A stretch of DNA of 57,984 nt, taken from assembly GCA_001799735.1 (NCBI GenBank), contig MGUA01000035.1, positions 1 through 57,984 on the forward strand. Direction: 5' to 3'. Under the pieces are notes generated by a model, which was given only the letters and a program-made list of their open reading frames with translations, did not search any database and was not told where the DNA came from. Numbering within the stretch: the first letter of the stretch is position 1; each line of letters begins with the position of its first letter. Position numbers and translations under genes: made by a program. The stretch is from Elusimicrobia bacterium GWB2_63_22 (lineage in GTDB: Bacteria; Elusimicrobiota; Elusimicrobia; Elusimicrobiales; UBA9959). Positions 45,238 through 49,768 of this stretch are shown here, in pieces.

Positions 45238-45477
45238 ATGGTCACACTACCCCGACTCCGCTGCCCCGACTGCGGTAAAGCTATGGGCCCGATAAAAGCC
45301 AAAGAAGTGCCGCCGGCCAATAAATACGAAGACTGCCTGCGCCGCTGCCCCAATTGCCGGATAGGCGCCACCAACGCCAAGAACCCCGCTAAAGTTAAAT
45401 ACATCCGCGACGGCCAGCCTGTGGAACCCGCAGAGCCCACGCCCGCGGAACCAACGCCCCCGCCTACCAATCCGTAG
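45238..45477 (+). CDS. small zinc-ribbon protein
   Basis: This 79-residue protein has two Cys pairs ([11 protein letters not shown] and [14 protein letters not shown]) plus one extra Cys, fitting a zinc ribbon over residues 8-45. The last 20 residues are a Pro/Glu/Thr tail ([17 protein letters not shown]). It converges on the SDR gene with a 14-nt overlap at the ends. Family not recognised. Confidence 0.68.
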
Positions 45478-47023
45478 GCTGGTAATCCTTCAGGAACTTC
45501 CCCCACACATGCTCGCCGGTGTTAAAGCCGGCGATGATGGGATCCACTATGCGCGCCGCGCCGTCCACAATGTCGAGCGGCGGGTGAAAGCGGTGCTCCG
45601 CCGTTTTGCGCTCCGCTATGTGCACCGGATCCTCGTCCGTCACCCAGCCGGTGTCCACCGCGTTCATGTGGATGCCGTCAACATAATAATCCGCGGCCGC
45701 GGTGCGCGTCATCATATTCAGCGCGGCCTTGGCCATATTGGTATGCGGGTGGCGCGTGGTTTTGAACTTGCGGTAGAACTGCCCCTCCACGGCCGACACG
45801 TTTACTATGTGCTTGTCGCGCTCGGGTGTGCGCAGCATAAGCGGCTTTAACCGCGCGTTCAGGATGAACGGGGCGACGGCGTTGACCAGCTGCACTTCCA
45901 GCAGCTCCACGGCCGGCACCTCCGCCATCAGCATCCGCCAGGAATTGCGCCCGCGCAGGTCCACCTGCTGCAGGTCCTGGTCCAGCCGGCCCTGCGGGAA
46001 CAGGGCGCCCTGCGCCGTCAGCTCATCCGGCAATAGCGGCACCTGCGACAGCGCCGCCGCGTGGGTAAGCCCGGCGGTCTGCGCGTCGGCAGGCGTAAGT
46101 GCTGCCGCCAGCTCCTGCCCGGCGACGGGGCCTTCGGGCAGCAGGCTGTAGCCGCGCAGGCCCTCGTAGGCGCCCAGCAGCTTGCGGGCGGCCTCGGGCA
46201 GGTCGCGCAGCGGGCCCTGCTCGCGGTCCATCATGTGGCGGTAGAACTCCGGCGGCCGCCGCACGGTCTGGCAGGCGTTGTTTATGATGAAATCCAGCCG
46301 GGTGCGCGTGGCCAGCAGGTGGGCGCAGAAAGCCTCCACGCTGGGCGTGTGGCGCAGGTCCAGGCCAAAGATCTCCAGCCGGTGGCCCCAGTCCTTAAAA
46401 TCAGGTTCGGCCGCGTAGCGCAGGGCCGAGTCGCGCGGAAAGCGCGTGCTCACTATCAGCTGCGCCCCGGCGCGCAGCAGCTTTATGCCCGCCTGGTAGC
46501 CTATCTTCACGCGGCCGCCGGTCAGCAGGGCCACGCGGCCGCGCAGGTCGGCCGTCTCGGTGCGCTTGGTGTAGTTAACCTCGGCGCAGGCCGGGCAGAG
46601 CTGGTCGTAAAAATGGTGCAGCTGCGTGTAGTTGGTCTTGCAGATGTAGCAATTCTGCTCCTCGTGCGCGGCGCCGGGGGGCGGGGCGTCGGAGGGGCGG
46701 CCCTCCCAGGCCAGCGGCGGGGTTATGTTGGGCGTGGTGAACACGGACTGCCGGCGCAGCTTGCGGATGCCGGTCTCGTTAAGGGCGCTCTCGGCGCGCT
46801 CGGTGCGGGCGGCCTTGCGCCGGCGGATGGCGGCCTTTACCAGCTGCCGCCGCGCGCGGGCGTCCGGCCGGGAAATTTCCCCCGCGGCCTTAAGCAGGCG
46901 GGTGCTTTCGTCCTCGGCCACGCCGGCCAGCAGGCCGCGGTCGGCGGCTACCGCCTCCAGCAGCTCGGCGGCGGCCAGCAATTTTTCTTTAAAGCCCGGC
47001 AGGCCGGGTTTGTTGTCGTTCAT
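45464..47023 (-). CDS. atypical short-chain dehydrogenase with N-terminal Cys4 motif
   Basis: This 519-residue protein is twice the normal SDR size. Residues 1-120 are helical and charged. CYICKTNY and LCPACAEV (about 125-145) form a zinc-type Cys4 site. The Rossmann part follows with [12 protein letters not shown] (variant TGxxxGxG), the NNA-type INNACQT and a late MNAVDTGWV. The usual YxxxK is read as TNMAK, so the catalytic Tyr appears replaced by Thr. The insert after INNACQT adds about 100 residues. Oxidoreductase activity is therefore uncertain. It is coupled by ATGA to the adenylate cyclase gene. Confidence 0.85.
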
Positions 47024-48747
47024 TTTGGTTCCACCCGGTACAGCACCATCGGCTTGGATTTGCCCTTCATCAGCACCGGCGCGCCTTCCACAAAGTCGAA
47101 ACCGGGGAAATCTTTTTTATCCACGCCCTGCACCACCGCCTCGCTGATCAGGATCTGCGTGGTAATATCCTTGGTCTGGCTTTCTATGCGCGAAGCCACG
47201 TTAACGGTGTCGCCCAGCACGGTGTATTCCATCCGCTCGGCGGTACCTACGTTGCCGGCCACCAGCCCGCCGCTGTGCAGCCCCACCCCGAAGCCTACCT
47301 CGGGGTAGCGCTTCAACGCGTTAAATTCCCGCAGGGCCTCGCGCATGCCTATGGCGGCCTTTAAAGCCGCCTCCTGGTGGTTCTCCACCCCGAACACCGG
47401 GGAGAAGATGGCCATCACGGCGTCGCCCATGAATTTATTTATGACGCCCTTGTTGGCGGCTATCGGCTTGCCGATATAGGTGAAATATTCGTTGAGAAAG
47501 CGGATCAGCTCCACCGGCGGCAGCTTTTCGCTGAGCGGCGTAAAGCCCCGGATGTCGGAGAACAGCACCGTGGCGTGGATCTCTTCGCCGGCCAGGTTAA
47601 CACGCCCGCTCTTCATTATCTTCTCGGCTATCTCCATGGAGACGTAGCGGCCGAAGGTATCCTTTATATGGTCCCGCTCCAGCAGGCCGTCGAGCATCAT
47701 GTTGAAATGCCCTTTCAACTGGCCGAACTCGTCGGCGTACAGCACCGAGGTCTTGCAGCTGAAATCCCCCGCCGCCACGGCCTTCATGCGGCCCACCAGC
47801 GCGCTCACCGGGGCCTGCACGTTAAGCCGGTACAGCCAGATAGAGACCGCCTGGAAGATAAGGATCAGCACGGTCAGCACGCCCACTATGGCTATGGGCA
47901 CCAGCACGCGGATATGCTCGGCCAACAGCGCCAGGGCCTTGCCCTCCTCGCCGCTGGAGAAGATCTTCCAAAAAACGTCCAGGTTGGAATAGATGGGCAC
48001 GTACAGGCCCAGCAGCAGCGGCACCATGCCCAGCGAGAAGATCATAAGCGCGTAGCGCAGCGTAAGGCTTATGGCGAAGCCGCGCTTGAGGCCGTAGGGA
48101 TTGTTGGCCGCGAAGAAAGGCCGGGCCATGAACCGGCGTATGTACAGCCCGGTGAGCTCGAGATTTAAATAGCTGACAAAAGCGCCGAACAGCAGCGCCG
48201 ACACCGCAAAAACCAGCTTCACCCGGTCCGGCACGGCCCCGAACTGCTCCGCGTAGCCCGCCGCGCTGCTGAAATAACGCTGCACGGCTATCACCCAGCC
48301 CAGCACAAAGATGGCCAGCGGCAGATTTATAATGCGGCTCTCTATGCGGGCCAGGTCCTGCGGCTTGCGCGAGAAATAATGCCGGTACAGCGGCCACAGC
48401 CACAACACCAGCAGCAGGAAATACAACTGCAGGCCCCCGCCCTTGCCCTCGTAGCGGATCTCGTCGCGCAGCTCCCCCCGCACCCAGCGTTTTTCCACCC
48501 GCTTGTTTAGGTTGAGGGATCTGAAGAATTTGTCCCGGACGGTTTGCGAGGGGACGTAATCTTTCCCTTTCGCCCCGGCGTCCACGGAATGCTGCCATTC
48601 GGTCTTCACCAGGCCGGTATCCAGCAGCGAATACTTCTCAAAGAAGAAAGCAGTGATGCCGCCAAAGGACACCATCAGCGAAAAAAGGAAGTACAACCCC
48701 AGATGCAGCCGGCCGAACTTCCCCCAGAGTTTGGACAAGGTTTTCAT
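47020..48747 (-). CDS. membrane class III adenylate/guanylate cyclase
   Basis: This 575-residue protein has several N-terminal transmembrane helices with a periplasmic segment (about 45-95). A HAMP-like linker near 320-370 ([20 protein letters not shown]) precedes the cyclase domain. It has metal Asp residues in [12 protein letters not shown] and [12 protein letters not shown] and the later [13 protein letters not shown]. The Lys before FMGD and the Asp in LGDTVN fit ATP preference, so cAMP is likely. The ATG at 48747 lacks an SD. It is cotranscribed with the SDR through a 4-nt overlap, which may place the SDR in a cyclic-nucleotide pathway. Confidence 0.9.
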
Positions 48748-48823: not shown

Positions 48824-49768
48824 ATGCGTAAGTTCCTCGGCTTGTTTTTGCTGCTGGCGGCCCTGGGCGCCGCCTGGTACCAGTGGCATACGCATAAGGC
48901 CCTTTACCGGGCGACGGCGCGCATACTGCAGGCCCGGCTGTTCCCCTGTTCTTTCCCCATCACTTATTCGCTGGGGGCCATAGACCCGGGCTACACCATA
49001 ACCCGGGAAGAATTAATAGACGCCCTGCGCGAGGCCGAAACCGCCTGGGAACTGCCGGCACGCAAGAACCTTTTTCAGCTGCAGGAGAGCAGCGGGGCAG
49101 TCACTGTCCTCATGGTTTACGACGACCGCCAGGCCGCGCTGGATAAACTGAAGGCGCTGGGCATTACCACCGACCAGACGCTGGACACCTACAAGGCGCT
49201 CAAAGCCCGCTACGAAACGCTGGCCGCCCAGGTGGACGCGCAGGAGACGCGGCTGAAAGCCATAGTGGGCCGCTACAAGGTTAGGGAAGCCGCCTACAAC
49301 GCCGAGGTAGGCCGCATGAACCAGCGGGGCAGCGCTCCCCCCGCCGCGGTGCGCAGCATCAACCGGGCCAAGGACGCGCTGGCCACACAGTTTGGCGGCA
49401 TAAAGATGATTGAGGGCACCCTGAACCAGAACGTGGACACCCTTAACGCGCTGGGCACTACGCTCAACCAGCTGATAGTGCAGCTTAATATAAAAGTGGC
49501 CCAGTACAACCGCACGGGTTCGGCCATAGGCCGGTACGAAGAAGGCCTGTACCGGGTTTCGGGCGGCATGCAGACCATAGAGATCTACAAGTACACCGAG
49601 CGCGCGCAGCTGGTGAACCTGCTGGCCCACGAGCTGGGCCACGCCCTGGGCCTGGAGCATGTAAAGGACCCGCAAAGCCTTATGTTCCCGGTAAACAGCG
49701 GCCGCGGCCTTAAATTAAACGCCGACGACATTGGCGAGCTTAACAGGGTTTGCAGACGGGGCAAGTAA
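48824..49768 (+). CDS. membrane-anchored matrixin-like zinc metalloprotease
   Basis: This 314-residue protein has an N-terminal signal anchor (FLGLFLLLAALGAAWYQW). A first catalytic-fold strand region (about 35-100) is interrupted by a long coiled-coil-like stretch (about 105-225). The zinc motif HELGHALGLEH uses His269, His273 and His279, with a Met-turn in SLMFP. The motif is that of metzincins (matrixins, M10-like). The coiled-coil insertion is unusual. It probably cleaves envelope or external proteins. Confidence 0.85.
   Translation: MRKFLGLFLLLAALGAAWYQWHTHKALYRATARILQARLFPCSFPITYSLGAIDPGYTITREELIDALREAETAWELPARKNLFQLQESSGAVTVLMVYDDRQAALDKLKALGITTDQTLDTYKALKARYETLAAQVDAQETRLKAIVGRYKVREAAYNAEVGRMNQRGSAPPAAVRSINRAKDALATQFGGIKMIEGTLNQNVDTLNALGTTLNQLIVQLNIKVAQYNRTGSAIGRYEEGLYRVSGGMQTIEIYKYTERAQLVNLLAHELGHALGLEHVKDPQSLMFPVNSGRGLKLNADDIGELNRVCRRGK

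Follow-up and report, generated by a model that had tools for sequence, protein, structure and literature searches.

What can a protein of the SDR fold do once the tyrosine of its active site has been replaced? In ordinary SDRs the catalytic Tyr gives or takes a proton and the Ser orients the substrate, the Lys binds the ribose and lowers the pKa of the Tyr, and the Asn holds a relay water. The question is raised by a gene on the minus strand (45464..47023) of contig MGUA01000035.1 from Elusimicrobia bacterium GWB2_63_22, a stretch of 57,984 nucleotides which is referred to here as the window. Its product of 519 aa combines an N-terminal helical region, a module of four cysteines (Cys4) and a split SDR domain featuring Thr at the Tyr site. 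An earlier note on this DNA had suggested either a non-catalytic NAD(P)-binding sensor or a protein using other chemistry, and both are still live readings after the analyses described here.

The ORF starts with the ATG at 47023-47021, and the gene is present in a single copy in the genome. Full-length relatives align with the protein from residue 1, and dN is well below dS in comparisons with close relatives (e.g. 0.035 and 0.346, respectively, for locus L002), which together indicate a real gene under purifying selection. On the plus strand, a 79-codon ORF (45238-45477, with its ATG at 45238) meets the SDR gene tail to tail and overlaps its end; the small ORF carries two CxxC pairs and has no Pfam match, and four other Elusimicrobia (L004, L005, L007 and L010) have relatives 64-81% identical to it close to their SDR genes.

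The earlier note had read in this protein a Rossmann domain of the SDR type, a TGGRVKIG cofactor loop, the sequence TNMAK in place of YxxxK, a long insertion and an N-terminal set of CxxC pairs, and all five features were recovered. The Pfam profiles adh_short (1.3e-13, above the cut-off) and adh_short_C2 (1.5e-12) place the protein in the SDR superfamily and match it in two pieces, at residues 164-255 and 367-469. These are separated by the insertion (about residues 254-347; 45983..46264, minus strand as for all the following features of the gene), which the alignment with ordinary SDRs from this genome puts after the NNA motif and before helix alphaE, and whose length varies among relatives. 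The AF2 model of the protein (mean pLDDT 70, pTM 0.67) agrees with this assignment, since residues 156-515 match NADP(H) SDR structures at Z about 22-23, as in the case of tropinone reductase 1ae1_B (Z 23.4, rmsd 3.6 A, 230 residues aligned). Confidence is low in much of the insertion, and pLDDT falls under 50 in the loop 414-424, at the centre of the presumed active site. A sequence search of the PDB for a solved relative of the family returned ordinary SDRs as its best matches. The helical region and the Cys4 module (C125-x2-C128 and C143-x2-C146, spaced as CxxC-x14-CxxC; 46586..46651), a presumed zinc site, precede the SDR domain. When folded alone, the N-terminal part (1-163) gave a pLDDT of 75.7 and a pTM of 0.31, with no Foldseek match at 0.001 and a best VIA match at Z 3.9 (rmsd 5.2, 72 aligned).

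The relatives used to assess conservation come from several searches. A scan of genome contigs yielded 80 loci, 53-93% identical in their best segment, and none of its peptide patterns covers the TNMAK site, which excludes a selection for Thr428 in these loci; the viral scan used the pattern HPHTNMA, and the locus L154 is thus biased for this residue. The conservation set comprises 164 distinct rows from 211 loci, with 203 ORFs matched by the profile, and holds part of the matched genes (in the Gemmatimonadota sample, for example, only 30 matching places were fetched). By identity to the window protein, 123 rows are at 70% or above, 15 at 55-70% and 26 below 55%, so that in the counts that follow most of the weight is carried by the divergent rows.

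When three ordinary SDRs from this genome are aligned with the protein, their Tyr comes to lie on T428, their Ser on A411, their Asn on N381 and their Lys on K432, so that the YxxxK position reads T428-N-M-A-K432. The earlier note had staked its interpretation on the Thr being fixed among homologues, none of which should carry a normal YxxxK. Thr428 (45740..45742) is present in 162/162 readable rows, down to 43% identity and across several phyla (L076 and L078 end before this residue), and YxxxK occurs in none of them. The position of the catalytic Ser is occupied by Ala411 (45791..45793) in 162 of 163 readable rows, the only Ser being that of L209. The window protein thus has neither the Tyr nor the Ser of classical SDRs, and the other two members of the tetrad are kept, namely Lys432 (45728..45730; 162/162 readable rows) and Asn381 (45881..45883; 163/164). 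The TGxxxGxG motif is likewise altered: in the cofactor loop (residues 168-175; 46499..46522) the second Gly is Lys173 (163/164, Gly only in L209), and R171 is invariant. D457-T-G-W460 (45644..45655) stands instead of the usual PG motif, with G459 in 161/161 readable rows. Divergent SDRs of the FabI type have their Tyr seven residues before the Lys, a position which is here His425. This residue is invariant, as are K421 and N429 (162/162 readable rows each), E413 (163/163), D457 (161/161) and, in 164/164 rows, R171, R194 and all four Cys.

Constraint is high at the pocket-lining segment 405-464 (beta5/alphaF/beta6), where 21 of 60 positions are fully invariant among 124 rows. The corresponding figures are 28/103 in 155-257, 16/55 in 465-519, 6/30 in 125-154, 7/38 in 367-404, 5/109 in 258-366 and 0/124 in the N-terminal region. 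The divergent member L209 has Ser at 411, Gly at 173 and a PG-type proline, yet retains Thr428; the Thr can thus hardly be the simple decay of a dead gene, and, as it persists even in the sole exception to Ala411 and Lys173, the absence of Tyr is the most constant mark of the family. L209 may also represent an intermediate between ordinary SDRs and the Thr428 family.

Judged by their sequences, these proteins form a conserved bacterial family built on a common NADP-binding fold, in which both standard catalytic residues have been replaced by equally fixed ones. With classical SDR reductases such as FabG, gluconate 5-dehydrogenase and tropinone reductase, the window protein shares the Rossmann fold, the order of motifs, the Asn and Lys of the tetrad and the NNA motif. 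It differs from them in the changes from Tyr to Thr, from Ser to Ala, from the second Gly of the cofactor loop to Lys and from PG to DTGW, as well as in the insertion of about 95 residues and in the N-terminal Cys4 module.

We consider it probable, at roughly 0.58, that the protein is an NADP(H)-binding member of the SDR superfamily which still carries out redox chemistry with a re-made active site. R171 and K173, as well as R194, which follows strand beta2 and is invariant, suggest a preference for NADP(H). Hydride would pass from NADPH to the substrate, and the proton normally handled by the Tyr would be supplied or accepted either by a polar group of the substrate itself, or by His425, Asp457 or Thr428 together with a relay of Asn, Lys, ribose and water. 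The loops holding the invariant E413, K421, H425, N429 and D457 line the nicotinamide pocket in SDRs, and going by sequence position these residues would ring the same pocket; the Cys4 module would serve as a structural zinc site.

This redox reading is made the most likely one by the SDR fold, the retention of Asn381 and Lys432, the family-wide replacement of Ser and Tyr, the conservation of the pocket segment and the precedent of eugenol synthase. The latter, an isoflavone-reductase-like SDR, reduces its substrate without a catalytic Tyr and with the Lys kept, a substrate hydroxyl lying near the place of the Tyr hydroxyl, according to its published description (PMC1991597). The two cases have in common the missing Tyr and the preserved Lys, and the likeness holds at the level of the superfamily, eugenol synthase belonging to a different subfamily. 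Against redox chemistry, Lys432 and Asn381 could be kept for cofactor binding or for the fold alone, a fixed role in binding a ligand or a partner would also give conservation, and no pathway is suggested by any gene neighbour. A more specific proposal is tentative: that NADPH chemistry proceeds via a set of proton-handling residues not used by known SDRs, in which the Asn-Lys relay with His425, Asp457 and Thr428 takes the place of Ser-Tyr, with the Cys4 metal site as an integral part and with a conserved substrate common to Elusimicrobia, Gemmatimonadota, Verrucomicrobiota, Acidobacteriota, actinobacteria, Stenotrophomonas and a Deinococcus.

The main rival to an enzymatic role is a non-catalytic sensor or scaffold for NADP(H), in which the SDR fold would sense the NADPH/NADP+ state and, by way of the Cys4 module and the insertion, communicate it to a partner, in a manner similar to NmrA and HSCARG; it predicts binding without turnover, and we regard it as rather unlikely. 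NmrA and HSCARG are SDR-type folds without the catalytic Tyr which are said to sense NADP(H), HSCARG having been named an NADPH sensor, and a comparable role would suit a family where the catalytic Ser and Tyr are both gone and the Cys4 module is unchanged in 164/164 rows. A difference is the catalytic Lys, which these proteins probably lack and which is invariant in the family studied here. Against the sensor reading, the Asn/Lys pair is kept and the segment lining the pocket is among the most conserved parts of the protein; the search for a conserved neighbour or partner gene was negative, and the linkage to the cyclase described below is not conserved.

A displaced Tyr supporting the usual reductase chemistry of SDRs is less probable still. 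The candidates are Tyr261, after the NNA motif, and Tyr417, eleven residues before Thr428, a spacing which we take to be that of the mitochondrial 2,4-dienoyl-CoA reductase. The 2,4-dienoyl-CoA reductases (DECR/pDCR) are SDR reductases with a non-standard catalytic set and, to our knowledge, with neither a Cys4 module nor a long insertion; pDCR (4fc6) is among the PDB matches of the window protein, the sequence match being weak (1.6e-4 over 160-252). Residue 417 is Tyr in 121/163 readable rows, but its place is taken by Ser, Gly, Ala, Asn, Asp, Thr or Gln in the remaining 42, and 20/162 members are devoid of any Tyr in 412-431; Tyr417 was consequently rejected as the catalytic residue. Tyr261 is Tyr in 163/164 rows, the exception being a Phe in L068. 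A different Tyr placed for catalysis, which the earlier note had named as counter-evidence, is hence improbable in the stretch next to Thr428, and the nearly invariant Tyr261 may still be a candidate. Tyr514 is conserved as well (158/159).

The gene adjacent to the SDR gene (47020..48747, minus strand) encodes a membrane protein that combines HAMP and class III cyclase domains, and its stop codon overlaps the SDR start codon as ATGA. The overlap is as the earlier note reported it; the coupling of the two proteins which the note proposed, and whose conservation it advised checking, did not extend to the family. The cyclase was searched by tblastn in the available loci (124 distinct ones, of which 93, window included, have at least 1.5 kb upstream). 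Its only matches are in the window (L001, L160) and in L005/L085, two loci with SDR copies of equal identity, presumably from one genome. There the cyclase is near the SDR gene in a different order, with an exonuclease gene in between. L002, 93% identical to the window protein, lacks this cyclase in the 6 kb flanking its gene on each side. The ATGA overlap is real but local, and a partnership with the cyclase was rejected as a family trait. Divergent from the cyclase gene, a matrixin-like peptidase (PF00413, 4.9e-10) is encoded at 48824-49768 on the plus strand.

Other neighbours provided no common partner. In an all-versus-all comparison of neighbouring ORFs from the 124 distinct loci, for which a simple ORF caller gave rough neighbour calls, no cluster appeared in more than 7 loci and no gene neighbour common to several lineages was found, the larger clusters being mostly those of close relatives. 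At a distance of up to 60 bp there were 65 co-directional neighbours, divided into 30/118 upstream and 35/118 downstream. Once four copies from Stenotrophomonas and six ORFs shorter than 115 aa had been removed, 55 remained, and 50 of these were put to Pfam (one each from L004, L010, L023, L079 and L105 was left out). Among the best 25 of 70 families, only RDD occurred in more than one neighbour (2/50); Guanylate_cyc was found in 1/50, the window's own cyclase, and EAL in 1/50. In five Stenotrophomonas (L055, L057, L059, L064 and L072) the next gene on the same strand, 14-37 bp downstream, is of the GAF-GGDEF-EAL type by reading. That the SDR protein is a regulatory module sensing NAD(P) for the membrane cyclase is accordingly very improbable: the ATGA overlap and the GGDEF-EAL type proteins, so labelled by reading, speak in its favour, but the cyclase accompanies the gene in just one other genome among the 93 loci, is missing from L002 and accounts for a single scanned neighbour, so that such a role across the family is largely refuted.

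PycC models hit the cyclase (best 1.7e-25), which may hold for class III cyclases in general. The 519-aa protein matches no PADLOC model; a Pycsar system, composed of a cyclase and a known effector, was rejected on this ground and on that of the non-conserved pairing, and a defence system in general on the first of these. A phage origin was also discarded, the 519-aa protein having no match in the phage collection at 1e-10. In the same collection L154, the one copy on an IMG/VR contig, where it lies near an integrase-like ORF (by reading), had no match at 1e-3, and L111 had one short match of 40.7% to an unannotated record. The FabG-like phrog_3142 matches the window protein at 9.7e-54, and three divergent members too. 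In a genome search, however, its profile scores 209 bits with ordinary SDRs and 102 + 81 bits, in two pieces, with the window gene, which identifies it as a broad SDR cluster and not as the Thr428 family.

The family is widespread. Protein or profile searches of whole-genome samples, with phylum names read from record titles and each sample including a centre genome chosen for having the gene, matched 20/198 genomes in the phylum of the window, 62/249 in Gemmatimonadota (around L048), 26/296 in Actinomycetota (L071), 12/247 in Acidobacteriota (L056), 4/240 in Verrucomicrobiota (L018) and 2/299 in Pseudomonadota (L055). Among its hosts are Stenotrophomonas and a Deinococcus. Two separate long matches, probably paralogues, were observed in 13 of the 62 positive Gemmatimonadota genomes. 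Divergent members are present on four plasmid records, and two plasmid-borne members are publicly annotated only as 'SDR family NAD(P)-dependent oxidoreductase'. Relaxing the threshold to 1e-7 added no further members in the plasmid collection, and the family is thus set apart from its other SDRs at that level. In a tree of 122 rows, the window protein groups with Elusimicrobia relatives adjoining Verrucomicrobiota rows, away from a second Elusimicrobia group, and horizontal transfer of the SDR-fold gene is possible. Two labels in the tree are doubtful, a 'Bacillus subtilis' contig (L054) falling among Stenotrophomonas and a 'Kuenenia' row (L053) among Gemmatimonadota.

No characterised member emerged from searches of the open-access literature on these proteins or on Tyr-lacking SDRs. 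The fold and the superfamily are known, and the family-wide replacement of Ser and Tyr in combination with a Cys4 module was not found described in the same literature. Ser-Tyr-Lys is the accepted signature of classical SDR enzymes, and this family has replaced the Ser and the Tyr and fixed the replacement across several phyla. It therefore constitutes a clear test case for an SDR working, or signalling, without these two residues, and with matches in 62/249 Gemmatimonadota and 26/296 actinobacterial genomes, cultured hosts included, it is common enough to matter.
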